Shown piece by piece: positions 14,020-45,279 of a DNA stretch of 64,000 nucleotides. A program made the position numbers and the translations under genes. The notes under the pieces were generated by a model, which was not told where the DNA came from, searched no databases, and saw only the letters and a list, made by a program, of their open reading frames with translations. The DNA is taken from positions 558,001 to 622,000 of the forward strand of contig CAWUHX010000083.1 of the NCBI GenBank assembly GCA_963922205.1, read 5' to 3'. Numbering within the stretch: the first letter of the stretch is position 1; each line of letters opens with the position of its first letter. Origin of the DNA: Romanomermis culicivorax (Eukaryota > Nematoda > Enoplea > Mermithida > Mermithidae).

Positions 14020-14025
14020 CTAATG
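14020..14025. repeat. Target-site duplication of the Polinton (left)
   Basis: CTAATG, identical to 29894-29899. Confidence 0.93.
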
Positions 14026-14172
14026 AGTAGTTAAGTGCCCCCCCTTAGGAGCAGATTTGGACCAGCCTGTGTTAAAGATGGAAAAAAGTGTACACAAAAA
14101 AACTCGAGGACCGAAGCATTGAAAAAGCTCATCTAGCTCTGACGTCATCGCTTTAGCTAGCTGGCCAAGTTC
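14026..14172 (+). repeat. Polinton left terminal inverted repeat
   Basis: About 147 bp, matching the reverse complement of 29743-29893 with few differences (length of the C run, GAAGCATTG vs GAAGCGTTG). Includes a TGACGTCA palindrome in GCTCTGACGTCATCGC. Confidence 0.95.
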
Positions 14173-14364
14173 AGTGAAGAAAAAGCATGTTGCGTTGTCT
14201 ACCTATGTAGGTCATCTTTTTTTTCAAAATCGAGTACCCTTATGATAGAATTTCATATTCAAATGATAATGAATCAGATTTTTGTCAAAATTTTAATGAA
14301 TTTCAGCCGAGAATAAAAAATCAATGACAAATAAATCAATAAGTAAACATACGATACAAATTTT

Positions 14365-17300
14365 CTATAAATCTAACGGAACTGTTGTTATTCCATCGTT
14401 CAAAACCTTTCTTTTTATGTAGAGGTAAGGGAGCCCTTGCTTTTTCTGAATGTAAGTCCATATTTTGTTGTCAGCTTGCATTCTAAAGCCGACATTTTCT
14501 CCACCCCCAGGCTTTTTGGTTTCCAAAACTGACAAGTATTCGTCAAATGTTATGGCATTGGTCTTTCTCATTAAACCTTTGCTACTTATCTTTTGTCCAT
14601 TCTCTTGGTTGCCTATCCCAATGTACGGTTTTGCAGCCAAGCAGCACATTGATGTGCCTTTCCATTCTACTTTCAAAAGTCCTGGTGTTCTCTTGTCACC
14701 CTTGTTTGTTACGAACCATTTTGGGTAGACATCTTGCATAAATTCTTCCTTGAGCTCTGATCTTACAGCACTTAGTAAATCGGAGCATGATACAGCCAAA
14801 TATATACTATCAGTGTCTGTCTCCATACACTGATACTTCAATTGATCAAAATATACCTGCAGTACATCGTAGAAAAACTCCAGCATTTTGATTTTGGCCC
14901 AGTTGTAAACTGACAAGCCAATTACAATGGGCAAATCGTGGGTAATTTCTGATTTTCGCATATGCACTTCATAGCAGTCCTCTGCAATGCATTTTACATT
15001 TTTGATGTATGGACTGTAGCTACTTTCTATGGCTTTTTCAGTGTCACAGTAGAATACATTGACATGGTTTTCCTTATTGGTCAGAGTTTTACCATATCCC
15101 CTGTTCCTGAGAAGTTTGTAGGTGTGAAACATGGTCAAGAAACATGGTCAATTCTGCATCAGTATCACCCTCCATGCGGTGTTTCGTAACTTTCTCTCTA
15201 AAAGCCTCAAATGGCCTTGATTCATCATATTGGACAACTTTGTAGATTTTTTCTAGCCTCAGCCCATGTTGAACAAGAAATCTAATCATTGGTGTTGATA
15301 AAAAAATGTTTCTACCTAAGTAGCTGCTAATTAAACAATCACGAGGCTTTTTTAATAGATCATTTCCCATTGCATAGTCTTTCATATGTGGGCCAATATC
15401 GTTAATGCCGACCTTTGCGTGCTTAATTATAGGAGGGAAATCTGCATATTTTTCTTTCAAATTTTACGGAGTAGAAATATCAACTTTAGCAAACCCAAAG
15501 ACACATCCATTTAAAATGGCATCTTCCATTTGTTTATAAGATACCAGTCTTTTGTCATAAAATGTATGATGCAAAATATTATTGTGTGCAAAGTATTTTG
15601 GTCTTTCCTTGTACCACTCACATTCCCAAATGGAGATCAAGTTGTAACCGAATGTTTGTATATAAGCTTCCTTTTCCTTAAGCCATGCTGCAGCTTCTAC
15701 GGCACATTTTTGCTTATTTTTGCTTCCAATTGGGCAGCTATGACAATGCCAATAGCAGCCGTAGAATTCGTTTACTGTATTTGTTGCTGAACAAAAACCG
15801 TCAACGGATAAATGTCTTGGACCAATGCTTTTTTCTGGCCCATTACCCAAATGTTGAATAAAACAGGCACATTTTAGAGCTTCTTGCTCCAACCATTCGA
15901 TTGAAATGGATTTTGATGAAACAACTTTTTGGAAGCCTTTATGTTCATTGGAGACCCAATAATCAAAGTGGCCTGTTGGTGTTGGCATCGATTGAGCCCA
16001 TAAGTAGAGAGCATTAAAGTCCAATCCAATAACAGCTTGCACAACTTTTTCGGGATTGTTTCTGATGAATGTTCTGTCCTTGATGGCGAGTCTTGTCATG
16101 ACCATTGCAAGGCCACCTCGCATACTGGTTTTGAGTTCGTAATATATATCCTTTGATTTCTCATTGAAGAGGGCAAAATGTGTGTCTGGTAACTCCTAAA
16201 TAAATAGCGCTCAGTGACACCTGGGAGGGACATTGCCTCACGGAAAATATCAATATCAAAGTTTAGCCAATAAACTTTGGACATGTTGAGGCAAGCTTCT
16301 AGAAATGGAATCACGTCTTGCAAATTGTAAAATTTGAGGTAATCAAACATGGTCTTCATTCCATATTCTTTCCAATTTTGTTGACATTGGTCATAATCAG
16401 CCTGACTAATGTGTTCTTTCTTTAAGGAACTATAGAAGCATTCTTTTGGTGGTAGTTGAGTCTCATTGAGTTTGTCATATGCCTTCAAATATTCATAGGG
16501 AAAATGAGATTTTGACAGTTTCGCCTTGTAGGCTTGCATGAAAGTGTTGAGGCTATACCCTGGTGCAGAATAAACTCGGGCATCTAGGAACTTCAGTGAA
16601 GGAGTGGTGAAGCACAGATAAGCCCCATTTCTAAGAATTGCTTTAGGCCAAGAATTTATTTCTTTTGACCGTATCTGTTGAACCAGCCCTGGAAAAAGAC
16701 TTTTTAATCAAATTTACATCCTATTTGCCAGAATTAAACCCAATACAAACTAACTGGTTGCAGTATTGAGCTAACTTCTTTTTTATAGACGTTATAAAAT
16801 TTGAATGACCTTTTTCTCTACGAGTATCTTTGTTATTTAAGTTTCGGGCAGCTATCAATTGTTCAGTATCCTTCAGTTGTTGGTCAAGTTCGAGAAATAC
16901 TAATTGAAATTGTCCCATCAGGATTTCCCTTTGCATTATACTAACTGTATTGAGGTAATGAATCATTTTTGCTACCAAAGAATCTGGGTCTTTATCAATA
17001 AAACAAATTGGCTCTTCATATCCTGGAACATTTGTGGCAATTGCACATGACACTGGAGTGTGCATTGCAGTAAATATTAGTTTTTCTGTTGGTTGATTCT
17101 GCTGTTGCTCCAACAGTGATTCAAAATCATAGACTGCTATGAATGGGCAGTATCGCTGGGTCACTGGTACATGAATATCTAACATTTCTAATGATTCAAA
17201 TACAGAGTTTTTAACTTGAAAGACACCACCTGGAAATTTATGGTGACTTTGTCCACTGTCGCAATGGTTCTGCATATGATCTTTTAGATTTTTGGCTTTC

Positions 17301-17486
17301 TTGAACAAGCGACTGCAATCTAAGCACCCATTCCTTTTAGCGTAATGACCCAAGTCGACAATATATGCAAAATGAACTTGTCCTTTCGCCGAAAATGAGA
17401 CGTCCAAGTTCATCAAGTATTTACGACTTTTAAGTACATTTTTCCAGCAGGTGGCATCCCCGAATTCGTTTGTGTAGTATATTTGA
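14365..17486 (-). pseudogene. Protein-primed family-B DNA polymerase, exonuclease and palm/thumb part (Polinton PolB), broken
   Basis: This is the replication polymerase of the Polinton. Five overlapping or abutting frames read in order on the minus strand: 17486-16721, 16539-16096, 16123-15464, 15460-15089, 15138-14365. Visible motifs are Exo I (VYDFESLL), Exo II (CIGFNSGK), the Exo III region (FYNLQDVIPFLEACL), Motif A (LDFNALYLW), Motif B (NRGYGKT) and Motif C (METDTDSIYL). So both the proofreading and polymerase catalytic sites remain recognisable, but at least four frame changes separate them. Near 17310-17260 a Cys/His cluster (CLDCSRLFKKAKNLKDHMQNHC) precedes the exonuclease. Transcription runs towards the left TIR, as usual in Polintons. 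Upstream the gene is interrupted by the pogo-type insertion at 17490-18432. Confidence 0.92.
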
Positions 17487-17489
17487 ATA

Positions 17490-18432
17490 CCGTCAACTGG
17501 GGCTATTCCGGACACCGGGGTAATTCCGGACAAACTTTTGTTTTGATGCTTAATGTCATTTTTTTAGGGAAATATGGTCTTTTATTGCGTTTTTGTTCTT
17601 GTGTTACATAATATGACCATTTGGCGATAATACTGTGTTCAAAATTAGTTTTAACCATCATTTGATTTCTTACTGTAACATATATACAAATTGTTGCATT
17701 TTTCAAAAATTTTCAGGGGTAGCAAACTTTTTCTAGTACTGGACTCTGGTTTGAGTCACAAATTTCAAATTTTGTTTTAAGATAGTTAAATATCTATATT
17801 AATTCGTCGTATAATCAATTTTGCTGAATATTGTGCCCGTCGGAAATTCTGACAGTTGAAAGGTAAAAATAAGATTTTTTGAAAATCACGGGGCTATTCC
17901 GGACACTCTGTCCGGAATAGCCCCGTCTATTTTCATAGTATATTTTTGCATTTTTAAGACCATGCCACGCACTTATACACTGAAAAATGTCAAATCGGAG
18001 TATTCGGCTGATGATATACGTCGTGCTGTGGCAAATGTTAAAGAAGGAATGATTCCATCGGTCGTGCCTTGATTATCCTTGATATTGATCTGATTGGATT
18101 CGTATTTTGTTTGCTCAATTTTTTAAAAACCATTAAAGTGTCCGGTTTAACCCCCACTAAGTGTTATTTGCGTACACAGAGCGTTTAACATGCATTTTTC
18201 AGTCAAAATAACCCACTGTCCGGAATAACCCCTAATACCGGGTAAATCCGGACACCGAGGTTTTTTAAAAAAAAAGCATGAATGTACTGTAGGTACATTC
18301 ATGCTTTTTGGTGTACGTCTAAATTGAGCAGGGACCAGAATTTAAAAAAAAAAATCGAGTCTGTAGTCCTCATCTTCGCTGAGATACATCACTTCAAAGT
18401 TCAAAAGTGTCCGGAATAGCCCCGGTTGACGG
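17490..18432. mobile_element. Pogo/Tigger-type (Tc1-mariner superfamily) deletion derivative, 943 bp, inserted in the polymerase gene
   Basis: Ends are inverted copies of CCGTCAAC followed by GGGGCTATTCCGGACAC, bounded on both sides by TA (17488-17489 and 18433-18434), the Tc1/mariner target duplication. Copies of the GGGGCTATTCCGGACAC motif recur inside, including a near-perfect internal palindrome at 17889-17928 and decayed copies near 17520, 18217 and 18235. An N-terminal transposase remnant (17962-18072) identifies the family. The flanking polymerase reading frame resumes on either side, which shows that the insertion came after the Polinton. Confidence 0.88.
17962..18072 (+). pseudogene. 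Pogo-type transposase N-terminal fragment (psq helix-turn-helix)
   Basis: A 36-residue frame starts MPRTYTLKN and continues with YSADDIRRAVANVKEG before a stop. This is the usual start of the Psq-type DNA-binding helix-turn-helix of pogo/Tigger/jerky transposases, which bind the terminal repeats of their element. The rest of the second helix-turn-helix and the DDE catalytic domain are missing, so this is a relic inside a non-autonomous element. Its orientation is opposite to the polymerase gene it disrupts. Confidence 0.8.
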
Positions 18433-18434
18433 TA

Positions 18435-18820
18435 TCTATGTCAAATAGGAATTCTAATTCAGGCAAATCACTAAAATAAATTCCTGGGAAGAAATCCACT
18501 GTAGGGGTAATGCCTTTTGTTACACAAAATTCTGAAAAGCTCTTAGAAACCAAGTCTGTATCTTGGAAATTGCCAACCAAACACTGAGCCCAACAACGGA
18601 AAAAACATAAATTGTCTTTAAACTTTGTATGGTGGCTGTCCTGGGTCATTCCCAATAGGTTGTGCCTTTGATGGCTGACTTGACTCGGCAAAATGTGACC
18701 TATACACCCAGCAACAAAATTAATTTGAGGAATAACATAAAACTCAACATTTGTGATTGCAGCCAGGTGCCACTTTGTGTTTGGTCGCGTAAATTTTTCT
18801 GTCATATCGATTTGTTGCAG
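18435..18820 (-). pseudogene. Polinton PolB, middle N-terminal segment upstream of the pogo insertion
   Basis: The minus-strand frame containing HLAAITNVEFYVIPQINF and ELEFLFDID runs into the left border of the pogo element and resumes at 17486 as QIYYTNEFGD, so both belong to one ancestral gene. Upstream (18820-19030) the frame is interrupted by stops and a shift but still shows NRETQETKYWYACHNN and VAEALQQIDMTEKF. No catalytic motif is present here; its role in the polymerase is unknown. Confidence 0.7.
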
Positions 18821-19038
18821 TGCCTCTGCTACTCTGTTGATATCCTCAGTATTTCAAATTATTTATAAATGGTTCAATAATGTAAAATTGTTGTGGCATG
18901 CGTACCAGTACTTTGTTTCCTGGGTTTCCCGATTTTTAAGAATACATCGGATGGCCGCATCAACCTTAAAGCACTGTTTTTCTTTGATATATATATATCT
19001 GTAAGCATATTAAGAAAACAGCCCTCCATTCCACTCCA

Positions 19039-19500
19039 TCAATAATTAAATATGTGATCCAATAAATTTATCCTTGATTCTTTTGTTCGTATTAGTCGCC
19101 AATAATTAGTAATTTCATTTCGTAAATCCTCTGGATAATCTAGCACATTGGGTATTTCTGAATCCTCCCCCACAACTGAAGCAACTCCTGTCATAAGGCT
19201 TGAAAATTCTTCATTATCTTGATTAGTCGGCTTGATCAACAAGCAACCACCAATGTGTTCCTTGGACATCATGGAAGCCCAACTTGTAAAAGCTTTTTTG
19301 CACTGTATACATTCAAAGCCATCTGAATGCTTCCCTTTGCAGTGACTCTTCATTCCTCTCTCATGACTAAAAGTTGAGGAACAAACTGGGCAGCTATAAT
19401 GCCAACCTTTGTGAATGGCATTTTTATGCTCATTCAAATATTTGTGTTTAGCAAAGAACTTTCCACAAATATCACAATTGAAAATTTTATTGCTCATCAT
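19039..19500 (-). CDS. N-terminal C2H2 zinc-finger segment of the Polinton polymerase (or a separate gene)
   Basis: From the Met at 19500-19498 (a second Met follows) the frame encodes two classical C2H2 fingers, CDICGKFFAKHKYLNEHK and CPVCSSTFSHERGMKSHC, each C-x2-C-x12-H with the second His in place, then a third Cys pair (CIQCKKAF), followed by an acidic linker ending at 19039. It is collinear with and directly upstream of the polymerase fragments, so I read it as the broken-off N-terminus of that protein. Alternatively it is an independent DNA-binding regulator. The minus strand upstream has TAAAAGTT at 19562-19555, a partial match to the promoter 10-mer of the plus-strand genes, but lacks the TATA part. 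Confidence 0.7.
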   Translation of the reverse strand: MMSNKIFNCDICGKFFAKHKYLNEHKNAIHKGWHYSCPVCSSTFSHERGMKSHCKGKHSDGFECIQCKKAFTSWASMMSKEHIGGCLLIKPTNQDNEEFSSLMTGVASVVGEDSEIPNVLDYPEDLRNEITNYWRLIRTKESRINLLDHIFNY

Positions 19501-19562
19501 GTTGATATAACCCAACCTTTCTCTATTTTAAAATTTTCAAAAATGACTCTACTCAACTTTTA

Positions 19563-20238: not shown

Positions 20239-20248
20239 TATAAAAGTT
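20239..20248 (+). promoter_or_regulatory. TATAAAAGTT promoter element (membrane protein gene)
   Basis: Exact copy of the element-wide 10-mer, 35 nt upstream of the ATG at 20274. A eukaryotic TATA box normally lies 25-30 nt from the transcription start, which would leave a very short 5' leader. Confidence 0.75.
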
Positions 20249-20273: not shown

Positions 20274-20495
20274 ATGGATGCTAACCATACTATGGAACAT
20301 TTTCTAGCCTGTCTGGAAAGGCAGGATGGGAAAACATTTTTTACTGAAATATGGTACTGTGTGGTCTTATTAGCTGTACTAACAATACTGACTCTGTTGA
20401 AGTTGTTGAGAAGATACTTGGAGAATCTGTTTTCAAAGAAACCTGGAACTAATACAAAAAATGTCAGATTCAATCTTGCAGATGGTCAGGTATAA
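20274..20495 (+). CDS. Small single-pass membrane protein of the Polinton
   Basis: A 73-residue intact frame follows a TATAAAAGTT box. Residues about 27-45 (WYCVVLLAVLTILTLLKLL) form one strongly hydrophobic helix followed by basic residues (RRYLENLFSKK), so the N-terminus is probably outside or lumenal and the short tail cytosolic. I do not recognise a named family. Small membrane proteins are frequent in Polinton and adintovirus gene sets, but no function can be assigned. It ends just before the TATA variant of the integrase gene. Confidence 0.6.
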   Translation: MDANHTMEHFLACLERQDGKTFFTEIWYCVVLLAVLTILTLLKLLRRYLENLFSKKPGTNTKNVRFNLADGQV

Positions 20496-20506
20496 ATAAA
20501 AGTTTG
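20491..20506 (+). promoter_or_regulatory. TATA variant upstream of integrase (TATAAATAAAAGTTTG)
   Basis: A TATAAA box followed by TAAAAGTT, 37 nt before the ATG at 20528. Looks like the common 10-mer with a partial duplication; it overlaps the end of the preceding gene. Confidence 0.6.
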
Positions 20507-20527: not shown

Positions 20528-21580
20528 ATGGACAAGCTCTTGGAAAGCATATATTTCAACCCCAGTACAGGGTATTGCAGTGTTCAGAATCTGTTCCTAC
20601 GAGCAAAAGCTGTTAACCCCAGTGTGACCCATCACTATGTTAAGGAATGGTTGCAAAAGCAGCCCACATATACTGTGCACAAGTTAGCCCGGCGTCATTA
20701 TCCTAGAAATAAAGTACTAGTTACTGATATTGATGAACAGTGACAAATAGATCTTGCTGACCTCAAATCACTTGCTAAGTATAATAGTGGTTTCAAATTT
20801 CTTCTAAATTGTGTAGATGTGCTGTCAAAGTTCGCATGGTCTGTCCCATTGAAAAATAAAAGTGCATCATCTATTTTGTGTGCCTTTGATAATATTTTAA
20901 ATTCTGGCAGGAAGCCCCAGAAAATACAGACTGATGCTGGTACAGAGTTTACAAACAAACCTTTTCAGGCCTTATTAAAAAAGCTCCACATAAGTTTTTT
21001 CATAACTGCTAGTGAAACAAAAGCCAGTATTGTTGAACGATTCAATAGGACTTTGAAAGAAAAGATGTGGCATCATTTTACTCACAATAATACATATTGT
21101 TACCTAGACATTCTGCCTCAACTGCTCAGCTCCTACAACTCGAGCAAGCATAGAACTTTAGGTATTGCTCCTGTGGATGTTACTGACAAGAATAAAGCTG
21201 AAATTGTTGAAAAACTTTTCAGTAAATGCAAGTCTGGTGTAAAATTTAAACTGGCTCCCGGTGACAAGGTTCGTATCAGCAAAGTAAAAAGGACTTTTGA
21301 GAAGGGTTACACTCCCAATTGGAGTGAGGAAGTTTTTGTCATTCATGAACAAAAAACTAGACATCCGCCTGCATATAAAGTAGAAGATCAGCTAGGAGAA
21401 GTCATACAGGGCGTATTTTAGGAACCTGAACTACAGAAAGTTGATGAGATTACAGATGTATGCCTCATAGAAAAGATCATAAGAAAAAGAAAAAGGGCTG
21501 GGAAAGCAGAATACTTTGTTAAGTGGAAAGGACACCCAGATAAATTCAAATGTTGGGAAACTGATTTGATAAAACTATGA
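20528..21580 (+). pseudogene. Polinton RVE-type integrase with C-terminal chromodomain, two in-frame stops
   Basis: Encodes the integrase that would insert the element. One frame runs from ATG 20528 to TGA 21578-21580, interrupted only by TGA at 20741-20743 and TAG at 21419-21421. Order: an N-terminal helical region (YVKEWLQKQPTY), the RVE core with first acidic site in QIDLADL, second in QTDAGTEFTN and the Glu in VERFNRTLKEKMW, an SH3-like basic region (LAPGDKVRISKVKR), and a chromodomain end (YFVKWKGHPDKFKCWE). All three D,D,E residues are present. Because the frame is otherwise kept, the stops are probably recent. The first stop lies directly before the catalytic core, the second between core and chromodomain, which would target chromatin. 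Confidence 0.93.
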
Positions 21581-21979: not shown

Positions 21980-22244
21980 TGTACTTACATGGACTAAAAA
22001 TTTTTTAGCACTCAATCATCTATGCACAGGTGTGCACAGCGCACAAGTGCAGAGATGCCTTCCCCAAGGCAGCCGTGGCAGTGGCCGCAGAGTTTGGACC
22101 TCCTAGACCCTACAGTAGGCTAATAATAGATGATTGTCAAGTTGGAGCATAACAAGTCTTCTGTATATAAGCAAACAAATGTATTTTCAAAAAATCTCTT
22201 CATTTCTTCATATTTTCAATCTACTGGTTGGTAGTGTCTGTAAA
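21980..22244 (+). other. Short Polinton stretch with possible small exon or broken ORF
   Basis: A 42-codon frame after a stop reads AHKCRDAFPKAAVAVAAEFG and ends before 22150. It may be the remnant of a gene or a small exon (a TTTTTTAG acceptor-like sequence precedes it). Not enough to call a gene. Confidence 0.25.
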
Positions 22245-22583
22245 ATGGAATGTATTTTTACAACAACCGCCCTCAGAATGGGGATTTTTCTCTATAGACC
22301 TTATACACAGGGGGATGTGGCCAGATATGTCTCCTTCTTTTGGGAGAGGGTAAGTGAAGACTACAAGAGGCGCTGGAAAATATTAGCACGAAGCATCAAT
22401 GAAATTGAAAGTCGAACAGGCAGAAGAAAACTGTCTGCATTTTGGCATTTCGCCAAAGCCCTGGAAGGGTTAGTTAAAACATTTAGTGCTGAGCCACTGT
22501 TGTATGAAATTTGGATGAATTTAACACCTGAAGCCAGAAGGGAATTTTTCACAGATAATAAAGGAATTGATATTCCATATTGA
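22245..22583 (+). CDS. Polinton protein of unknown function, helical
   Basis: Two Met codons (22245 and 22278) open the same frame; I take 22245, giving 112 residues. The sequence is mainly amphipathic helix with conserved-looking stretches YRPYTQGDVARYVSFFWERV, KRRWKILARSINEIE and MNLTPEARREFF. No zinc site, signal or membrane segment. Family unknown to me. It sits just before the packaging ATPase and transcribes in the same direction. A TATATAAG at about 22158 could serve as its TATA box. Confidence 0.5.
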   Translation: MECIFTTTALRMGIFLYRPYTQGDVARYVSFFWERVSEDYKRRWKILARSINEIESRTGRRKLSAFWHFAKALEGLVKTFSAEPLLYEIWMNLTPEARREFFTDNKGIDIPY

Positions 22584-22707: not shown

Positions 22708-22717
22708 TATAAAAGTT
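22708..22717 (+). promoter_or_regulatory. TATAAAAGTT promoter element (packaging ATPase)
   Basis: Exact 10-mer, 39 nt before the ATG at 22747. Confidence 0.8.
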
Positions 22718-22746: not shown

Positions 22747-23370
22747 ATGGCTGTAAAATTTAATCACCCTTTTACATGTATTGTTGCTGGCCCTACAAAA
22801 GTGGGTAAAACAACCTTTGTAAAGAATTTAGTACTAAATGTGAAGTACTTGATTGAACCAGTTCCTGAACATATTCACTGGTTCTTTAGTGAGAAGCAGC
22901 CAGTCTACAATGACTTGTCTGGCAGAGTCAACTTCTATCAGGGATTACCTGACATGAACTTGATAAGAGAGCTCAGTCCTGCACCCCAACTTGTTATACT
23001 AGATGATCTGATGCAGGAAATGGCAAAAAATAAGCATCTCAACATTCTTTTTACTCGTGGATGTCATCACATGAATGTGTCTGTGACACACATTGTTCAA
23101 AATGTTTTCTTCGAGGGTCTAAGAATATCTAGAATAAATGCAGAGTACCTTGTTTTGATGAAAAATCCTGCAGATAGGCTACAAGTAAAAACTTTGGCAA
23201 GACAGTTGTTTCCTGATAAAGTAAAGTACTTTCTCGAGTCTTTTGAAGATGCCACATTTAAACCATACAGTTATATAATTATTGATCTTTCTCAAACAAC
23301 ACCCGATAAACTTAGACTCAGAGCTGATATTTTCTCAAAATTTTCCACGATATATGTGCCAAAAGTATAA
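22747..23370 (+). CDS. Polinton packaging ATPase (FtsK/HerA-type, A32-like)
   Basis: Intact 207-residue protein that would pump the element DNA into capsids. Walker A is in VAGPTKVGKTTFVKN (residues about 13-27) and Walker B in LVILDDLMQEM (about 84-94). A DEAD/HR-like sensor region follows in THIVQNVFFEG. Length and motif order match the genome-packaging ATPases of Polintons, related to poxvirus A32 and other double-jelly-roll viruses. The stop codon TAA is embedded in the TATAAAAGTT box of the next gene. Confidence 0.93.
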   Translation: MAVKFNHPFTCIVAGPTKVGKTTFVKNLVLNVKYLIEPVPEHIHWFFSEKQPVYNDLSGRVNFYQGLPDMNLIRELSPAPQLVILDDLMQEMAKNKHLNILFTRGCHHMNVSVTHIVQNVFFEGLRISRINAEYLVLMKNPADRLQVKTLARQLFPDKVKYFLESFEDATFKPYSYIIIDLSQTTPDKLRLRADIFSKFSTIYVPKV

Positions 23371-23375
23371 AAGTT
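23366..23375 (+). promoter_or_regulatory. TATAAAAGTT promoter element overlapping the ATPase stop codon
   Basis: Exact 10-mer, 36 nt before the ATG at 23402. The ATPase stop TAA (23368-23370) forms part of the TATA box. Confidence 0.82.
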
Positions 23376-23746: not shown

Positions 23747-24320
23747 TGCATACAAATAAAATGATTCTTGTACCGCATAACATTGGTCATAGGGAGGATA
23801 TAGCAGCTAATGTCATGACTGCTTTGGATAAAGAAATGAATGATATTTTAACTAATAAGTCATTGCCCTCTGACAGATAGATAATCTTATACAATCAAGT
23901 GTTGCACAGATATAGGCAGGCTACGCAGGATCAAACCAGACCTTATAAGTTGACTGTTAGTGAACCTGTTGCAGAACACCCCATTCCTGATCTGGAAGAA
24001 ATAACACCAAAGCAAAAAAGCCAGACACTGCTGAAAGCACTGTTGATGTTACCCCGAGAAAAGATGTGCTGTATGAAAAAACTATGAAAATTGTACCAAA
24101 AAAGTGGCATAGTCAAGCTAAAATGTTATATGATTATGCTAAAGATAATCCACACATGGAGTTGTGGGATAAAGGAGAAATGATTCTGAAAGGCAACAAA
24201 ATAAGTGGAACTAACATTGTTGATTTGATTTCTGATGTAGCAAGAGTTGGTCCGAGGCACCAGCAAGCAATAGGGTTAGAATTGTTTGTCAAGAACCTCT
24301 TAAAGGAGAATGTGCCTTGA
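23746..24320 (+). pseudogene. Conserved Polinton virion-type protein (GTNIVDLISD motif), broken
   Basis: Starts at ATG 23746, overlapping the previous stop. The frame has an in-frame TAG at 23877-23879, continues to about 24015 and then moves to another frame near the A-rich AAAGCAAAAAAGCC at 24010-24020, ending at TGA 24318-24320. Recognisable parts are YNQVLHRYRQ in the first half, and WDKGEMILKGNKISGTNIVD with ARVGPRHQQAIGLELF in the second. This two-part arrangement is a common Polinton protein next to the capsid genes and is often suspected to be a minor virion component; its exact function is not known to me. Confidence 0.72.
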
Positions 24321-24396: not shown

Positions 24397-25528
24397 ATGA
24401 TTCAGCTCAGCAAAAATTATCTGTACATGATCTTGAAAATTACTTACACTGTTCCTGCTGGTGGAGCTGCACCAGTAATTGCACCTATCAATCTGATTGG
24501 TAAAGCATTTTTCTGACAAGTGAAGCTCTTCCTGAATGGCTGTCTTATTCATGATAGTGGGGATAAGTATGCCTACAGAGCATTATTTGAAACTGATTTG
24601 AATTTTGGTTTTGATGCTAAAAATAGTCACTTACAGTCTTCTTTGTATACTATGGAAGCAGGTCCTAAAATAGATACTGCTGATTACCAGGGTTTTAAAG
24701 ACAGAGTAAAGTACTTTGAAAATGGTCAAACAGTTGAAATAACAGCTCCTCTTCATATTGATCTTCTAATGCAAGATCGATATTTACTCAGCAATACTGA
24801 GCTCGAACTGGAATTGATTCGCAATAGTAATCCATTTGTATTACAGTGTCCAGCTGGTGATGCAGAAGATGCAAAACTGGAAGTTTCCCAGATTAAACTC
24901 TTCATCAGGAAAGTTGAAGTTCTCGACAGTGTTGGATTGGCTCTCAAAAAAGCAATGTTAAAGACACCAGTCAAGTACCCAATTAGACGAGTCCAAATGG
25001 TGAATCTTCATATTGCTAGTACAACGCAATCCACACCTCTGCATACTCTATTCACTGGTCAGTTGCCACGTAGGATGATTATAGCATGCGTCGATGCGGA
25101 TGCATATCGTGGAGAAATAAAAAAATCTCCATTTAATTTTAAATGTTACAGTATAAGTGAAGTCAAGGTTGACTCTGGTGGTCAAGCTTTTCCAGCGACT
25201 CCATTAACACTTGATTTCGCCAACAACAAATATATTCGAGCCTATGATCAGCTCTTTGAAACTCTAGACATGGCTAAAGATAACAAAGGGAATGGCATTA
25301 GCAGACTTAATTTTAAAAATGGACAGTGCTACTTTTGCCTTCGATTTTACACCTGATGAAGATGATAGTGGACATTGGGACTTGATTAGAGATGGTTCCA
25401 CAAGTATAGAATTGACGTTTGCTGATAGGATACCTGACGCAGGTATAGAAGTTATTGTTTATGCAGAATTTGACAATTTGATTATGATTGATAAAAATAG
25501 ACACGTCTTTAATGACTATACTGCATGA
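24397..25528 (+). pseudogene. Polinton major capsid protein (double jelly-roll, F54H12.2-like), broken
   Basis: Would form the hexon-like shell. The frame from ATG 24397 shows QLSKNYLYMILKITYTVPAG, has an in-frame TGA at 24514-24516, then a long open run to 25356 with VKLFLNGCLIHDSGDKYAYR, IDLLMQDRYLLSN, KYPIRRVQMV and LFTGQLPRRMIIACVDADAY. At the KNG/MDSA boundary near 25328 the frame changes and continues to 25528 with FAFDFTPDEDDSG and EVIVYAEFDN. Compared with the family, the N-terminal roughly hundred residues are missing, so an internal deletion near 24330-24390 (an area of short ATGATTCA repeats) is likely. ORFs of this type are annotated in nematodes as F54H12.2-like. The last codons overlap the protease start. 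Confidence 0.85.
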
Positions 25529-26019
25529 ATACCTCTGAAATCTACATCTTGATCAATAGAGACCAAGCTCTCAGACAAATCTTCAATGGGGTATTTCCTA
25601 TAGACTGTTTACCACCTCTGGACACTGTACCAGCAGCATTGGTTGTAAATCTGGACAAGCAGGATGAACCTGGTTCACACTGGGTAGCTCTGTTTGTTGA
25701 TAAAAAACATGCGTGTTGTTATTTTGACAGTTACGGCCTGGAACCACCTCAACAGCTTAGGAATTACATCAAGACTATATCTACTTCTTACAAGTGCAAT
25801 ACCAAATGTGTTCAACAGTACCTGACTGCTACATGTGGTCAGTTATGTGTATACTTTCTCGTGTGGATGGTTAGAGGTATAAGTATGACAGATATTGATG
25901 CTAGTTTGGAACAAAGCTATGCTGATGAATTTGTCACTGGCTTCATCAACAGTCTCTTTAGAACAAATACTCCCATATATGATGATGCATTTTTATTTGA
26001 ACAGCTCAACAGAATATAA
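25525..26019 (+). CDS. Polinton maturation protease (adenain/Ulp1-like cysteine protease)
   Basis: Intact 164-residue protein that would process capsid precursors. The catalytic set is visible in order: His in GSHWVALF (about residues 50-57), Asp in CCYFDSYGL (about 65-73), Gln/Cys in TATCGQLCVYFLVWM (about 102-116). Length and order match adenovirus-type proteases and the Polinton PRO gene. The start overlaps the capsid stop by four bases (ATGA, 25525-25528). The stop TAA is embedded in the promoter 10-mer of the next gene. Confidence 0.93.
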   Translation: MNTSEIYILINRDQALRQIFNGVFPIDCLPPLDTVPAALVVNLDKQDEPGSHWVALFVDKKHACCYFDSYGLEPPQQLRNYIKTISTSYKCNTKCVQQYLTATCGQLCVYFLVWMVRGISMTDIDASLEQSYADEFVTGFINSLFRTNTPIYDDAFLFEQLNRI

Positions 26020-26024
26020 AAGTT
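26015..26024 (+). promoter_or_regulatory. TATAAAAGTT promoter element overlapping the protease stop codon
   Basis: Exact 10-mer, 39 nt before the ATG at 26054. The stop codon TAA (26017-26019) is in the same register within the box as for the ATPase. A three-codon upstream frame (ATG 26038) lies between. Confidence 0.82.
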
Positions 26025-26053: not shown

Positions 26054-26836
26054 ATGGATTTTTCACAGTATTATGTAACATTACCGAGCAATGCTCAGAG
26101 TGATCCAAGTAACTCTGCTTCAAATTTTAGTATCAGGTTGCCTCATAGACTGATTTTGCAAGGTGAATGGGAATGTGCACTTTGTGAATTCATCTACCCA
26201 AATACGTGGTTCAATATAACACCTAGTGATAGTATAATAAAATTTTATGATCCTCAGACCAATACTAGGCAATTACTAAAAGTACCTTCTACAGGGTATG
26301 AATCTATAATAGATTTAATTGAAGCTATTCAACAATCCATCAGGTTGTTGAGTGAACAGGAAAAAGTTCCATATGAGGAGTTTATTGAATTTTCATACAG
26401 GAGATTAGCCAGAGCAGTTGTCCTGAAAGTCAACTTGACTAGAATCAAGAGCATAAAATTAAGTGATCCTCTACTCTACCTGTTGGGCTTTGAGAAATCA
26501 CAACTAGAAACAACTTCATCTGAAAAATTGAAAATTGCTGCTGCACACCCTGCTGATATGAAGGCTGGTCTCGAAACTATGTATGTTTATTGTAACATCA
26601 TTGAACAACAGATTGCTGGTGATATTGTAGCCCCCCTCCTCCGTATTGTTAATATAGAGGGAGCTTTTGGTGACATTATAGATAAGATATATATAGCTCC
26701 TCACTATTTGCCTGTACTCGTAAAAGATATCAATTCTATCGAAATTTCAATAAGAACAGATCAAGACAAACCTATAAAATTTGTCACTGGTAAAACAATT
26801 GTGAAGTTACACTTTAGAAAGCGAAGTTTATTCTAA
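26054..26836 (+). CDS. Polinton minor capsid (penton-like, single jelly-roll) protein
   Basis: Intact 260-residue protein. The N-terminus YYVTLPSNAQSDPSNSASNF and the following RLPHRLILQGEWECALCEF fit the Polinton penton/minor capsid family, which begins with a Y-x-LPSN and an L-x-GxWEVAL-type strand. It would occupy capsid vertices next to the double-jelly-roll major protein. The C-terminus is basic (KLHFRKRSLF). Only 2 nt separate its stop from the TBP-like ATG at 26839, so both are presumably expressed from the promoter at 26015. Confidence 0.88.
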   Translation: MDFSQYYVTLPSNAQSDPSNSASNFSIRLPHRLILQGEWECALCEFIYPNTWFNITPSDSIIKFYDPQTNTRQLLKVPSTGYESIIDLIEAIQQSIRLLSEQEKVPYEEFIEFSYRRLARAVVLKVNLTRIKSIKLSDPLLYLLGFEKSQLETTSSEKLKIAAAHPADMKAGLETMYVYCNIIEQQIAGDIVAPLLRIVNIEGAFGDIIDKIYIAPHYLPVLVKDINSIEISIRTDQDKPIKFVTGKTIVKLHFRKRSLF

Positions 26837-26838
26837 AA

Positions 26839-27357
26839 ATGCAAGTACAAAACATTACTGTCACAGCTGAACTTGGCTGTCAACTCAATTTGGACTCACT
26901 TGTTAAAAAACTGGATGACTCTAAATGGACTATGGGAAAATTCAGGTCACTAATTTGGCACCTTCGTGATCCTAAATGTTGTCTGCTGTTGTACGAAAAT
27001 GGCAAGGTTGTATGTGTGGGTATTAAGGCAACTCAGCAGGCTGTGAAAAGTATAGATTATGCTACAAAAATACTTCTCAAACATGGCTATCAACCAAGAC
27101 CCAGGAAATTTAGAATGTGCAATGTTGTCGGGTCATGCGCCCTAGATCACTGTATAAATGTTGAAGAATTCTATAACACTCATAGGGGTCAATGTGATTA
27201 TTCTCCTGAATTATTTCCTGCACTCAAATATACAATCAACAAGCAGGGCTTATGTGCATTGATTTTCCATAATGGCAAAATTATTATTACAGGTGCCAAA
27301 ACCTATAATGAACTACAAAAAAACTTCAAAGAGTTACTTGTCAATTTTCAAAGTTGA
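26839..27357 (+). CDS. TATA-box-binding protein (TBP) core encoded by the Polinton
   Basis: Intact 172-residue protein with the two direct repeats of the TBP saddle and almost nothing else. Repeat 1, residues about 4-80, has AELGCQLNLDSLVKKL, then KFRSLIWHLRDPKCCLLLY and NGKVVCVGIK. Repeat 2, about 91-170, has CNVVGSCALD, YSPELFPALKY and LCALIFHNGKIIITGAKT. Of the four DNA-kinking Phe positions of TBP, three are Phe here (F35, F126, F143) and one is Tyr (Y52). The stirrup PELFPAL that contacts TFIIB in cellular TBP is kept. There is no N-terminal extension. In the cell TBP nucleates transcription complexes on TATA boxes. The gene follows the minor capsid gene by 2 nt. Whether it was captured from a host TBP or from a virus is not decidable here; a TLF/TRF2 origin is less likely given the retained Phe residues. 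Confidence 0.93.
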   Translation: MQVQNITVTAELGCQLNLDSLVKKLDDSKWTMGKFRSLIWHLRDPKCCLLLYENGKVVCVGIKATQQAVKSIDYATKILLKHGYQPRPRKFRMCNVVGSCALDHCINVEEFYNTHRGQCDYSPELFPALKYTINKQGLCALIFHNGKIIITGAKTYNELQKNFKELLVNFQS

Positions 27358-27443: not shown

Positions 27444-27664
27444 ATGGAGCCTTGCAACTTGCAACTTGCAACTTATGTGGGAAAACTCCTGTGCATTCTG
27501 TGCATTATGCTGTGTGTAAATATGTTCAGGGAGGTAGATACAGAGAATTGGGTGTTGATCCTCCAGGAGTGAAAAGAATGAAAAAGGCAAACTGCTATGA
27601 TCACTGGGATCATAACTATTTTGTTGGATCAAAAATATTATGCATACAAAAAATGAAAGAATAA
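27444..27664 (+). pseudogene. Small Cys-rich Polinton protein, frame broken by a 7-bp tandem duplication
   Basis: After ATG 27444 (MEPCN) the heptamer TTGCAAC occurs three times in a row (27454-27474 region), and the conserved-looking downstream frame (LCGKTPVHSVHYAVCKYV and onward to 27664) is in a different phase. Two extra heptamers add 14 nt, so slippage explains the shift. The downstream part has CNLCG and later Cys/His residues like a small zinc-binding fold and a basic stretch (GVKRMKKANC). Function unknown. Confidence 0.5.
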
Positions 27665-27669
27665 TCAAT

Positions 27670-27743
27670 GGATGAGAAAAAATAAATAAAATAAAAATAA
27701 AAATAAATAAATAAATGAATAAATAAATAAATAAATAAATGAA

Positions 27744-27822
<79 letters not shown>

Positions 27823-27892
27823 ATGAATAAATAGATAAATAAATAGATAAATAGACACATAAAATATAAGATAAATAGATGAATAGATACAC
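27670..27892. repeat. (AAAT)n microsatellite
   Basis: About 220 bp of AAAT units with scattered G substitutions (AATGAATA, AGATAAAT). Long YLFI-repeat frames on the minus strand are translations of this satellite and not genes. Confidence 0.97.
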
Positions 27893-28264
27893 ATACATTT
27901 TGATCATCCTTTTACATGCTTGCATTCAGCTGAGCTGAAAAGGCTAAATAATGAACACATTGTATACCTCATTAACCAAAAAAATTTTTTGGCCGTACTT
28001 TTTTTTAATCCAAAAACATATTTGTACCCAAAATCGTGCATTTAGTTTATTGATTTTTCCACGGAAAAAATCGAAAAAATTTTTTTTGCCAGGCTCACTA
28101 CCTTTCAGGAAGCCTCTGTAAGAAACAACAAGCATAATATTCGTTAGTTATGGATTTAACCTGTTAAACGGCATAACCTGATTATCTGAGGAAGATCAAG
28201 ACATAGATAAAATGAAGTTTCACTGTGAAGAAGCAGAGAGAAACATTTGAGTTTGTGGGTACAA
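27893..28264. other. Non-coding Polinton interior
   Basis: AT-rich with A/T runs; a 13-codon frame from 28211 could be an upstream exon of the following gene, but this is unsupported. Confidence 0.4.
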
Positions 28265-29164: not shown

Positions 29165-29742
29165 GAGTGCACCCACAGGCAGATCCAGTTGACCCCAACA
29201 ATGCATGTTTACGATCGTTCCAATGCCACATGCATTTTGTACTTTAATAATTTGTGAGTGGTTATGCAAGATAACTGCGGCTTGAACCAAAGACATACAC
29301 ATTGAGGTAAATAAAGAAACAAAAAATTGATGATGATTCACAACCATGTTTTACTTTTAGATAAGCTCTTACAGAAGAAAAAGCCATGAAAAAGTGCGAC
29401 AACCTTGTAGATTTTTTTTGCAGTATATGACACAAGGTGCTTTAATACTTTTTAATCTTTTTTTTGCGCGCTTTTAGAGTTGATCAATATTTATTTGAAT
29501 TTAGTAGAAGAACAAATAAATTAGCATGTGATTTCAATCTCTAATATAATAACCCCACAAGAAAAGTTGAGAAATTTTAAGGTATGTTAATGTTAGGAAA
29601 GAAAAAAAAGAAAATAAACGAGAAAAAAAACAATAATTGACAATTTCTTAAGCCACTTGTGTGCAAAGATCTTATCAAACTTTTTACAAAGCCAGGAATA
29701 ATTTGAAAACATTTTACTAGTGTACTGCATTGTGGCCACATT
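29165..29742. other. Non-coding stretch before the right Polinton TIR
   Basis: AT-rich with poly-T and poly-A runs; no gene supported. Confidence 0.5.
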
Positions 29743-29893
29743 GAACTTGGCCAGCTAGCTAAAGCGATGACGTCAGAGCTAGATGAGCTTTTTCAACGCT
29801 TCGGTCCTCGAGTTTTTTTTGTGTACACTTTTTTCCTATCTTTAACACAGGCTGGTCCAAATCTGCTCCTAAGGGGGGGGGCACTTAACTACT
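29743..29893 (-). repeat. Polinton right terminal inverted repeat
   Basis: Inverted partner of 14026-14172. A 102-codon frame (29767-30075) running out of it is a chance frame across the insertion junction. Confidence 0.95.
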
Positions 29894-29899
29894 CTAATG
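29894..29899. repeat. Target-site duplication of the Polinton (right)
   Basis: CTAATG, identical to 14020-14025. Confidence 0.93.
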
Positions 29900-31427: not shown

Positions 31428-34400
31428 TTATACTTCACACAGATAGCTTTCGATAAAACTCATACTTACATTCAGTTTATTATTTCGTTTGAATATTTTT
31501 GCCTGTGTTTTGACTGAATTTGTACAGGCTGAATGGTTTGGTATTTTACCACTTTTTCTTGTTTTATAAATAAAAAACTTGGCCATAATCAGTAGTACAT
31601 TAATTATTTGAAGTTCTAGCGGATCATACCCATTTAATATTCCAAAGATTACATCCACTCGTGAGACTTTTATTGGTATAAGCATTTTTACTTTAAGTGA
31701 GTCCTCAAACTGCTTCCAAAAGAAGCCATTTGTCTTACATTCAAACAATGTGTGTAGTATATCATCATTTTGGTTGTCGTCGCAAAGGTTGCATCTACTT
31801 GATTCACTGATTTTATACTTATGCAGTAAATTTTGTGTCACCAAAATATTATGCAGAATTTTGAACTGAAATTGATTATATTTATTGCTTAGTTCAAGAT
31901 TATATAAATTTTTCCAAATCTCCTCAAAGTTTATGAGTTTGGTGGCATTTAGTTTTGACATCCATGCCTTTTCACCTGTTGGAGTTTCCAACTTTGCCTT
32001 TATCATGCACTCTTTGATCTTCTCTAAATCCTTCTTATCCCATACTTGAACTTCAAACTCACATTCACTCTTTGAATTGTAAGTTTTGACCAATTGTTTC
32101 CAATTTTTTGGAATTAAGTTGATTACGTTTGCATAATCAAACCAGGAAATTTTACATCTCTTTATCATCATATCATCCTACTTCTCTAAATTGCATTTTT
32201 CGTCAAACCAGTGGAACATATAGTTGAAATGTGTGCCCTGAAGTGATTTTATAAACAAGGATTTCTTGCCACTTATCACAAATCTGTTATTATTTATTTC
32301 TTGTACCATTACTTGACATGGGGTGAGGATATCATAAATGTTACTACTCAGGACATATTTTACTGTTTCGAGAACTTGATTATAGAATGGTGGTACACTA
32401 ACAGCCAGAAATTTGATTGTATTACATTTTCCAGGCTGCCAATTTGTTCAAGGTTTTTTACTCCAATTTGGCACCATTTGCCTGGGTTATTCAGCATTCT
32501 CAGTAGCCATTTTGCTTTGAGTGACATTACTGTAGCCTCAATCTATGGCATTTTAATTCCACCATGTATGTACTCTTGTATCATCACTGTCTGTTTGATT
32601 TTGGGCATTGATCCATTCCAAAGAAAATTTTGTAGCATTCCTGTTAATTTTTTGATAATAATTGGTTCAACTACCAGGTTGATCATACTGTAGGTAAGTT
32701 TAGATGATATAAGATAGTTCCAAATCACTATTTTTCCATAGAAGGTTAAATTTCTTTTTTGCCATTTATCACATTCTTTTTGGCATTCTATAATTTTTTC
32801 ACCAAAGTTTTTTTCTAGCATGTTTGCCTATCATATGAGAAAAACACTCCTAGTACTTTTATTGTGTCTACTATTTCACACCTTGCGATATACCCTATTT
32901 TTATTTTGTTGTATCCTAGACCAAGCATCTGAGTTTTTGCTATATTGATCTTTAAGCCTGAGGCCTCTGAGAACATTTTAATTAACTTCATAGCATGCGA
33001 AAAATCCTGCTCATCTTTTACCAGTAACATAGTGTCATCAGCATACATAAAGACTTTGTTTCTTTGATCATATATATTCAGTCCCTCAAATTCTTTGGAG
33101 TCCCTGAGTGATATTGCCATGTATTCCATTGCACATATGAATAGGTATGGTGAGATTGGACATCCTTGTCTTACTCCTCTACTCAACTTAAAACTTTTGG
33201 TGCTGTATCCCATTTTGGTTACAACAGCCTCAGAGTTTTTGCACAGTGTTTCTATCCAAGAGCAGAACCTTTCCCCCATGTTAAAATTTCTCAGCACTTT
33301 AATCATAAAGGTTCTGTCTAGGGAGTCAAAAGCCTTTTCTATGTCTAAAGCTACTAGATAGCCCATTTCTTTTTTGGATTCATAATGTTCAACAATGTCT
33401 AAGATATATCTGATATTTTCCCCTATGTATCTATCAGACAGGAAGCCTTTTTGATCTTCATGTATCAACTTTTTGAGACATAATTTCATACAATTTGCTA
33501 AGGTTTTAGCAAAGATCTTATAGTCAACATTTGTTAATGATATAGGTCTCCAGTTTGCCAAGTTTTGTGTATCTTTCCCACTTTTTGGCAACAGAGTAAT
33601 AACACTTCGTCTTTGAGATCGAGACATATGCCCCATCTCTAAATTTGATTTCAAGCAGTTTATAAATGGATCCTTTATCAGGTCCCAATAGCCTTTATAA
33701 AACTCAACTGTTAAACCATCATCACCTGGTGTTTTCCCATTCTTCATTGTGTCAAGTCTATCTTTCAACTCTCCTTCTATTATGTCTTTTTCTAGGGAAT
33801 TTTTTTCCCCATCTGTTAATTTTGGAGTATTGAGTTGCTCAACTGCATTGAAAAATATTCGCTGGCTCTCAGTTTTATTACTGTGACTAGAATATAGATT
33901 ACTGTAGAATTCATAAATGTATTCTAGTATAGCTTTCGAATTTTCTATAGTGTTACCATTTGTGTCTCTTAGATTGTAGATGGCTTTCTTATTATACTTT
34001 CTTTTCTCTAAGTTTAGAAAGTCCTTTGAAGGTTTTTCTCCTTGTAAGTTCCATCTAATTTTTGTTTTTTCCATAGAGAATGCTACTTTCTGTTCCATTC
34101 TTGTCATTATTTCTGCTTGCAGTTCACTGTGTTTGGCCCTTTTTTCAGCATTTTCCAATTCATCTAGACTTGTTTCTAAATCTTGTAACTGCTCTCTGAG
34201 TTGCTCTTCGTGCTTTCTTTTCTTTTTTGCAATATTCTTGCAGTAGCATATTGTTTCACTTCGTATTTTGTATTTAACATATTCCCAGGTTGAAGCAGCA
34301 TCAAAGTTGGTAGATTTACTTTCTTTCAGTGATATTTCTATGGTATCTTTCAGTAGAAATTTGTACTTTTCATCGTTGATAAGTGAGTTGTTAAAAATCC

Positions 34401-35165
34401 AAAAACCTGGTCCTCTCCTTTTGTGTAGCCTTCCAGTTATGGTGAAACAAATTCCATTGTGATCTGAGGGTAATCCAGAGATAACATCACATTTAGTTTT
34501 TTCATTTATCAGTTCTTCTGATATGAAAAAATAATCTAATCTACACTTCATTGATTTATCATGGTTAGACCATGTATATCTCAGTCTGTTGGGATACTGG
34601 TGCCTAAATGTGTCGATCAGATCATGCTTGCTTAGTAAATTTATAAGTTTTTGTGTAGATCTATTTTTATTTTTATTTTGACCACCACCATTCTTGTCTA
34701 TTGTTGGATTCAGTGTAACATTGAAATCTCCTCCTAGAATTATGGGGTATTTATTTTCTGCAAAAGTTTCTAACTGGTTAAAGAGTTCATCCCAAAATAT
34801 AAGCTGTTCTTTCTCTGTCACTGGTGTATAAACATTTGCTATGATAAAGATAGAATCCCGTCTTAAGTTTCATAAGAATATATCTACCTTCTTTATCAGT
34901 CTTAACTGTCTCCACTTTGTATGTGAATGAGTTATTTAATAGGATCATGACTCCTCTAGAATTTGACAAGCCATTAGAATATATAGTGCTACTTTACCCA
35001 CAGCCCCATTCATTTCTAACGTGATTCTTAGACAATAATGTAAGGTGAGTTTCCTGAAGAAAAATTAATCATATTTATTGTCTCTACAGAATTGAAAAAT
35101 ATGTTTCCTTTTCTTTTCAATATTAATACCTTTTGTATTTAAAGATAAAAATTTAAGGTTATATG
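31428..35165 (-). pseudogene. LINE ORF2: endonuclease, reverse transcriptase, zinc-knuckle; several frameshifts
   Basis: Order on the minus strand. The endonuclease starts near 35165 with FLSLNTKGINIEKKRK and IFLQETHLTLLSKNHV (catalytic Glu in QETH), continues through 34969-34787, and then shifts frame near 34870. The long frame 34821-32815 contains the rest of the endonuclease (ILGGDFNVTLN, LPSDHNGICF) and the RT with KTPGDDGLTVEFYKGYW, VALDIEKAFDSLDRTFM and the active site MYADDTMLLV. After a shift near 32815 the thumb/linker follows (32821-32543), then 32171-31428 with the C-terminal CNLCDDNQNDDILHTLFEC knuckle. The protein would nick target DNA and reverse-transcribe its RNA there. At least three breaks make this copy inactive. 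Confidence 0.9.
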
Positions 35166-44917: not shown

Positions 44918-45279
44918 CTTTTCAATTCAAAATGAAATCTCAAACATTTTGGGTGGATCACCAAATGAGAGTCTCAAGAAAATAAGGAAAAGATTTATAA
45001 ATATAACACTGGTGATCCGTTTAAGTTTATTAAGTACTTACCTTTTCTGTGTTGAGTCCAAGTTTCCTTGACTTCTAATCGAATACTGGAGGCTAGACCT
45101 GGTAGGACATCTGCCTTAGGTTATGTTCCAGGTTTTCACAAAATGCTAATGAACTCTCAAAAAATTCCTTGTCCCCACCAGTGAATAGCACTTGACTAGA
45201 TGCTCCCACGGCACTTATCAACTCGCTATTTTTCTCTGAGTCCTCAAGTAATGTAATTTCTGCACAACCGAGGCCAGTT

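Follow-up and report, generated by a model that had tools for sequence, protein, structure and literature searches.

Polintons of the nematode Romanomermis culicivorax carry a gene for a TATA-binding protein

In eukaryotic transcription, the TATA-binding protein (TBP) has a central place and is highly constrained. Here we report that a Polinton of 15,868 bp in the mermithid nematode Romanomermis culicivorax, lying in a 64,000-nucleotide stretch of contig CAWUHX010000083.1 (positions 558,001 to 622,000, assembly GCA_963922205.1; the whole stretch is called the window below), encodes its own TBP core, and that several Polinton lineages have long kept this TBP gene under selection. The best reading of its role, which we hold with moderate confidence, is that the protein would serve as an element-encoded initiation factor for the Polinton's own TATA promoters, working with host RNA polymerase II (Pol II). 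A preliminary description of this DNA had proposed an element-borne TBP from an intact open reading frame (ORF) 2 nt past the preceding gene, both TBP repeats and the residues of the DNA face, and had suggested as checks a search with the Pfam family PF00352, a model of the fold, a tree, a search for other Polinton copies, and an estimate of the ratio of nonsynonymous to synonymous substitution rates (dN/dS); the observations held, and the proposal draws support from far more than this one copy.

An intact TBP gene within a Polinton

The TBP ORF (Table 1) begins 2 nt past the TAA of an upstream ORF labelled minor capsid protein (mCP) and runs without interruption for 172 residues. Its product matches PF00352 with 133.4 bits (cut-off 22.9; E 2.5e-39) over two stretches, which correspond to the two direct-repeat lobes. 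A sequence search of the PDB gave a best E of 2e-29, and 35 of the 36 distinct sequences listed are TBPs or TBP fusions (one of the 35 bears only the name ECU04_1440), the 36th, at E 0.47, being unrelated. Given an alignment of 47 sequences, 46 of them TBP relatives, AlphaFold2 predicts the saddle fold with a predicted local distance difference test (pLDDT) score of 95.7 and a predicted template-modelling score of 0.85, the model from the single sequence reaching a pLDDT of only 35.6; Foldseek, run on the predicted model, places TBP-DNA structures at the top of its matches (E 6.8e-17, template-modelling score (TM) 0.92).

Residues were compared across ten Polinton TBPs and three candidates from elsewhere (see below), the numbers of yeast and human TBP residues being presumed. 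The positions that we assume to be those of the DNA-kinking phenylalanines are F35, Y52, F126 and F143 in the window TBP, that is, Phe at three of the four and Tyr at the fourth, and the stirrup reads YSPELFPAL, all as first described. Thirteen of 20 DNA-face positions are unchanged (Q4, N5, F35, L50, K56, V58, N95, V97, F126, L141, F143, K147 and T151), and binding and bending of TATA DNA is the function that sequence and modelled fold would predict. Little can be concluded from one intact copy, because a 519-bp ORF would often survive by chance at the roughly 1% divergence of the element's terminal repeats.

The TBP family across the genome

The case for a Polinton gene is strengthened by its many copies. 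In the R. culicivorax genome (359 Mb in 595 contigs), a PF00352 profile search gave at least 150 scored matches out of 438 candidates, and a search with the window TBP at least 151, which, merged with nine further PF00352 places, make at least 152 places. The host's cellular TBP has a gene of its own on contig C95, with two exons or more. We fetched 59 TBP loci from the PF00352 list, together with the host TBP, a set biased to good scores. The 59 loci fall into five subfamilies, with 29-97% identity to the window TBP: S1 (30 loci, the window's own type), S2 (8), S3 (9), S4 (8) and S5 (2), with two loci unplaced. Intact ORFs, counted from a Met and of at least 165 residues, are found at 38 of the 59 (S1 25/30, S2 6/8, S3 3/9, S4 3/8, S5 1/2, unplaced 0/2).

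Placement within the element is also conserved. At S1-S3 loci, those of the genes for major capsid protein (MCP), protease (PRO), mCP and TBP that were matched always occur in this order and on one strand; several of these loci lack one or more of MCP, PRO and mCP, and one (L135) holds TBP alone. Between the mCP stop and the TBP ATG lie 2 nt in 28 of 30 S1 copies (of the other two, one is unread and one deviates, at -32), 2-3 nt in all eight S2 copies, and 84-107 nt in S3, where six of nine copies could be read. Genome-wide, of the 106 mCP matches that reach residue 255, 99 are followed within 700 bp, on their own strand, by a TBP match among the matches listed, and in 78 of these pairs the matched ends are 6 nt apart; the other seven may be real absences or may have partners beyond the matches listed. 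Surroundings differ in the remaining subfamilies. At the S4 locus L101, TBP precedes a relative of the window's 22134-22583 ORF (E 8e-5, against the window's ORFs alone), and a short mCP-like piece follows TBP there and at L103 (E 3e-18 and 9e-18 by profile). No mCP match was obtained at the remaining S4 loci, some of them cut short. In S5, TBP stands head to head with ORFs that we read as DNA polymerase B (PolB) by what we take to be an exonuclease motif, and that gave no Pfam PolB match. A neighbouring gene is common to L106, of S4, and L110, of S5 (E 3.7e-25). Two TBP-like copies lie outside clear Polinton context: L112, whose neighbours are LINE-like (long interspersed nuclear element) ORFs together with a weak relative of the ORF at 22134-22583, and L115, of 148 residues.

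An artefact of a single insertion is rejected by the many dispersed copies with conserved mCP-TBP placement. We likewise reject a recent copy of the host TBP gene confined to one element and free of selection, the outcome named beforehand as refuting: the window TBP shares 32-35% identity with animal TBPs, which by eye have near-identical cores, the copies form several subfamilies, and the gene is under selection.

Purifying selection and origin

Six comparison sets of intact copies were usable for dN/dS (NG86 method, our own code), and five of them gave 0.12-0.28. The median for S1-S1 is 0.171 (303 of 325 pairs usable, range 0.083-1.052); S1-S2a and S1-S2b give 0.125 and 0.122 (38 and 34 usable of 40 taken from 78 pairs each), at dS above 2 and near saturation; S2a-S2b gives 0.217 (9/9 pairs) and S2a-S2a 0.280 (2/3 pairs). 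Neither of the two pairs of the window TBP with S3 was usable. Simulated neutral genes had a median dN/dS of 0.67, the lowest of 1000 being 0.15 after 45 mutations and 0.31 after 178, and 5 of 1000 stayed stop-free at about the S1-S2 divergence. In S1 and S2 the Polinton TBP is under purifying selection. In decayed S3 the three S3-S3 pairs, all usable, have a median of 0.849, which speaks against selection in those copies or for decay after insertion.

As to where the gene came from, the evidence is less decisive. In a tree of 74 sequences, including 17 Polinton TBPs, the three outside candidates and seven TBPs from viral contigs, the Polinton TBPs and the three candidates form one clade (support 97/91) outside the sampled cellular eukaryotic TBPs (95/84), in a tree with long branches, a bootstrap that had not settled, and an archaeal outgroup mixed with viral-contig sequences. 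The host TBP (C95:239346-239980) clusters with two nematode TBPs (96/95). Approximately unbiased (AU) tests do not reject an animal origin, either with all sequences (p 0.109) or, with five long sequences omitted, for S1-S3 and P0194 alone (p 0.532) and for S4, S5, P0122 and P0147 alone (p 0.477); nor do they reject separate origins of the two Polinton TBP groups (p 0.485 and 0.271).

These results bear on one alternative, in which a host TBP or TRF was captured once and has been carried since without function. The AU tests would allow it, 21 of the 59 fetched copies are broken, and the S3 pairs approach a dN/dS of 1; nonetheless, we disfavour this account as very improbable, given the low dN/dS in the other five sets, the distance from an animal TBP core that hardly varies, the retention of the gene by several subfamilies, and the rarity with which simulated neutral genes stayed open.

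Relatives were also sought outside this genome. The window TBP alone (P0001), searched against 5.8 billion proteins, found none at E 1e-3 among 13 candidates, and an alignment of six Polinton TBPs found 654 proteins. Among the best 120 of these, we judged three to be probably of Polinton type from sequence and place in the tree: P0122 and P0147, on metagenome contigs of 1.4 and 1.0 kb, the former 49% identical to the S4 and S5 copies L101 and L110, and P0194, on a 1.6-kb contig and with 38-40% identity to the window TBP. Scans of viral contigs with P0001, the element's ATPase and queries A1, A3 and A4 found no relative; query A2 found 12 contigs with TBPs (23-27% identical), of which seven were placed in the tree, five inside archaeal TBPs and two near the eukaryotic base on very long branches. 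The five (L001, L004, L010, L011 and L012) lie on IMG/VR contigs of 34-166 kb and perhaps represent viruses of archaea with a TBP of their own.

TATA boxes of the element

TATA boxes stand 35-39 nt ahead of the ATG of five element genes, namely a 73-residue ORF, integrase, ATPase, the pX-like ORF and mCP (Table 1). The motif TATAAAAGTT occurs five times in the window, always within the element and on the + strand (shuffled sequences: mean 0.35, largest 3); the shorter TATAAAAG is not rare, with nine matches, five of them in the element, and as many in 7 of 100 shuffles. The element holds 29 TATAWAWR sites, compared with a mean of 9.6 and a maximum of 20 in 60 shuffles. As a mechanical control, first-ATG ORFs of at least 60 residues were scored for a TATA box at 33-41 nt, which 4 of the 36 in the element and 1 of the 70 elsewhere have.

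For mCP, other copies show the same. With mCP starts extrapolated from the alignment and readable at 43 of 47 loci (of 30 S1, 8 S2 and 9 S3), the 80 nt upstream of mCP contain TATAAAA in 29/29 S1, 7/7 S2 and 7/7 S3 copies, with flanks that differ between subfamilies (one S1 copy has another match as its nearest, at 11 nt). At PRO, the control at these loci, it is found in 0/28 S1, 0/6 S2 and 0/7 S3. As for TBP, a TATAWAW stands no more than 100 nt ahead of a readable ATG in 27/29 S1 (at 66 nt in the eight listed), 5/6 S3 (72 nt) and 2/2 S5 (46 nt) copies. The preliminary description had the element redirect initiation to its own promoters, a proposal with which the TATA boxes before five genes are consistent and which we still only infer.

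Predicted contacts with the host machinery

At the surface that meets TFIIB, two Glu residues can be followed. The window TBP has S122 at the first position, C.L3.2, and E124 at the second, C.L3.4. The C.L3.4 Glu is retained in nine of ten Polinton TBPs (the exception, L138 of S1, has Lys), and C.L3.2 is Glu in the S4 and S5 TBPs, which hold both, and in P0122 and P0147. The position of Y52 is Phe in S3-S5 and Tyr in S1 and S2, one S3 copy (L145) having Tyr at a Phe position; the equivalents of the N-lobe contacts V71 and T124 are T and V in S1-S3, against V and T in cellular TBPs. In passages of PMC7221094, a loop and three positions of helix H2, four apart, are described as a basic site for TFIIA, Mot1, TAF1 and Brf1. 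We compared four H2 columns spaced by four, of which the three that match that site are a guess, the loop position not having been placed: the host has R, R, R, K and the window TBP V, D, K, K, with at most one basic residue in S2 and none in S3, a loss of half or more of the patch in S1-S3. Among the scanned ORFs of the element, Pfam gave no TFIIB match. Genome-wide, three exon-like TFIIB matches on two contigs stand against more than 100 TBP places, with no multicopy TFIIB, and the element must therefore rely on host TFIIB or on an unrecognised partner.

Overall, we believe these observations are best accommodated by the following model. When the element is expressed, its TBP would be made alongside the capsid proteins, would bind and bend the TATA boxes ahead of the element's genes, and would recruit host TFIIB and host Pol II; with the basic helix patch half or more lost, a looser hold by host TFIIA, Mot1/BTAF1 and TAF1 may follow. 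Binding, partner choice, timing and escape from control are what we infer in this scheme. Besides the S3 copies, a number of observations weigh against it. Seven of the 20 DNA-face positions are changed in the window TBP (T7, H41, Y52, V60, C94, T132 and I149), one of them a kinking Phe that has become Tyr. The C.L3.2 Glu is replaced by S, T, A or V in all eight S1-S3 TBPs compared and in P0194, because of which binding of host TFIIB may be weakened; passages of PMC7221094 note that viral TBPs vary at C.L3.2 and at the regulator patch, mostly in the company of a viral TFIIB, and take such changes as a sign that these TBPs do not use host TFIIB. Two of the four H2 positions are still basic in the window TBP. 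The fifth TATAAAAGTT, at 23551, falls inside an ORF, PRO has no TATA box within 100 nt upstream in the window copy, the start of MCP is unreadable there, and TATAWAW is present in the 100 nt before TBP in 0/8 S2 and 0/4 S4 copies whose ATG could be read; the TBP gene's own promoter is thus not uniform between subfamilies. The TATA boxes do not prove a need for the element's TBP, because host TBP could serve them. Finally, S4 and S5 are less firmly tied to Polintons, by short or motif-level matches only.

Several of these points could be turned into other models. The loss of the C.L3.2 Glu in S1-S3, the partial loss of the basic patch and the lack of a TFIIB match in the element would suit a dominant interferer that occupies TATA boxes or captures TFIIB and so lowers host transcription, host TBP meanwhile serving the element's strong promoters. 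We consider this rather unlikely, since a pure blocker would harm itself when the element's own genes bear consensus TATA boxes; the C.L3.4 Glu is also widely kept, and S4 and S5 keep both. Alternatively, the TBP might pair with an unrecognised element protein that replaces TFIIB. The precedent of giant-virus TBPs, mostly found with a viral TFIIB and variable at C.L3.2 (passages of PMC7221094), points that way, and several element ORFs, including 22134-22583 and 23991-24320, match no Pfam family; set against the TFIIB searches of element and genome, such a partnership strikes us as improbable. About equally improbable, in our estimate, is a DNA-bending structural protein for replication or packaging of the element. 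The place of TBP directly behind the capsid genes in S1-S3, the predicted saddle and a largely retained DNA face would agree with it, but TBP has other neighbours in S4 and S5, the C.L3.4 Glu that is kept so widely is a contact to TFIIB rather than to DNA, and the TATA boxes mark gene starts.

A stronger version of the initiation-factor model can also be entertained, in which the Polintons of this nematode run a core-promoter system of their own. Its TBP, either captured at a very early date or already present in the lineage before sampled cellular eukaryotic TBPs radiated, would have altered contact residues, read dedicated TATAAAAGTT promoters, and work with host Pol II while largely escaping control by Mot1, TFIIA and TAF1. 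We regard this as unlikely, if worth keeping in view, and the two H2 positions still basic in the window copy lower its odds.

The element and its surroundings

The borders of the element are well defined, as first described: the terminal inverted repeats differ by 2 substitutions and 3 gaps in 155 alignment columns, and the same 6-bp duplication flanks both (Table 1). The gene set is that of a Polinton, ATPase and protease matching above Pfam cut-offs and capsid, integrase and PolB below them, in the expected places. The window copy is a decaying insertion, as PolB, MCP and integrase are broken. The gene before TBP was called a minor capsid gene in the preliminary description; its position 2 nt upstream is confirmed, and the name, for an ORF that gave no match in a Pfam scan, is one we presume from position.

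Table 1. Features of the Polinton, in window coordinates
Feature	Position	Strand	Evidence or remark
Target-site duplication CTAATG, left	14020..14025		
Left terminal inverted repeat	14026..14176	+	151 bases
PolB region	14365..18853	-	5 or more pieces, frames differing; one piece matches DNA_pol_B_2 (E 1e-4, below cut-off); other pieces presumed from position
C2H2 zinc-finger ORF	19039..19527	-	
TATAAAAGTT	20239..20248	+	35 nt before ATG of 73-residue ORF
73-residue ORF	20274..20495	+	transmembrane-like by eye
TATAAATAAAAG	20491..20502	+	37 nt before integrase ATG
Integrase, broken	20528..21421	+	stop at 20741-20743; rve E 1.5e-6 on downstream piece, below cut-off; upstream piece assigned by frame and position
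TATAAAAGTT	22708..22717	+	39 nt before ATPase ATG
Packaging ATPase	22747..23370	+	Pox_A32 E 9.4e-6, above cut-off
TATAAAAGTT	23366..23375	+	36 nt before pX-like ATG
Small pX-like ORF (label presumed), 114 residues	23402..23746	+	no Pfam match
Major capsid protein, broken	24517..25528	+	piece 24517-25356 DJR-like, E 6.6e-5, below cut-off; second piece 25268-25528 in another frame, by position; stops interrupt the region before 24517
PRO, adenovirus-type cysteine protease	25525..26019	+	Peptidase_C5 E 7.4e-5, above cut-off
TATAAAAGTT	26015..26024	+	39 nt before mCP ATG, overlaps PRO stop
mCP (name presumed), 260 residues	26054..26836	+	label by position
TATAAAAT	26773..26780	+	66 nt before TBP ATG, within mCP
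TBP, 172 residues, two lobes, intact	26839..27357	+	Pfam, PDB search, AlphaFold2, Foldseek
Right terminal inverted repeat	29739..29893	-	155 bases
Target-site duplication CTAATG, right	29894..29899		

In the 2.3-kb right part of the Polinton, where no gene was recognised, lies a tandem repeat array (27633-27913, with 8- and 12-nt spacing). Just beyond the right end is a LINE-type retroelement (31428-34869, - strand), with RVT_1 at E 1.9e-37 and pieces of an endonuclease and zf-RVT. ORFs at 38625-39545 (+ strand) resemble exons of a host short-chain dehydrogenase gene by what we take to be the motif of that family. A large inverted repeat at 43332-53185, with arms of 806, 290, 234 and 138 nt that are 90-92% complementary and 6.7-8.2 kb apart, is possibly a foldback element.

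Comparison with known systems

The element shares with Polintons, Mavericks and adintoviruses at large its terminal repeats and 6-bp duplication, its ATPase and protease and, laid out as expected, its matches to capsid, PolB and integrase. The main text of a review-type paper on Polintons (PMC11071308) names no TBP, with 0 mentions of TATA or TBP. Among the open-access papers listed by our searches, judged mostly on titles and opening lines, none describes a TBP in a Polinton, and a prior description in subscription papers is possible. The likeness to cellular TBP extends to two lobes, predicted fold, much of the DNA face, three kinking Phe residues and the PELFP stirrup. Unlike cellular TBP, the Polinton protein has no N-terminal extension, its gene has no introns and sits inside a Polinton, and its surface differs in having Tyr at one Phe position, an incomplete basic helix patch and no Glu at C.L3.2. 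As a natural, highly diverged TBP, it offers a means of probing which contacts with TFIIB, TFIIA and Mot1 are needed.

Among viruses, the TBP mimics of herpesvirus late genes are similar in that a viral factor replaces TBP at the virus's own promoters with host Pol II; by the abstract that describes them, they act with other viral proteins, six in all. The TBP of the Polintons suggests a route by which endogenous viruses may be switched on apart from host control. Giant viruses and mirusviruses are similar as DNA viruses with their own TBP, variable TFIIB contacts and an altered N-lobe regulator patch (passages of PMC7221094 and PMC10132985). TBP is given as present in 59% of mirusvirus genomes (a passage of PMC10132985), TBPs are mentioned for an alga in elements that putatively derive from mirusviruses (a passage of PMC10675990), and a giant-virus TBP is named in a passage of PMC11464507; against viral models, Foldseek gave the Polinton TBP a TM of 0.44-0.81 over 41 rows with E up to 0.001. 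The genomes of these viruses are far larger and mostly pair TBP with a viral TFIIB, whereas the 16-kb Polinton has a TBP and no TFIIB that we found. Judged by the families compared here, few eukaryotic DNA elements known to supply a general initiation factor would be as small as Polintons.
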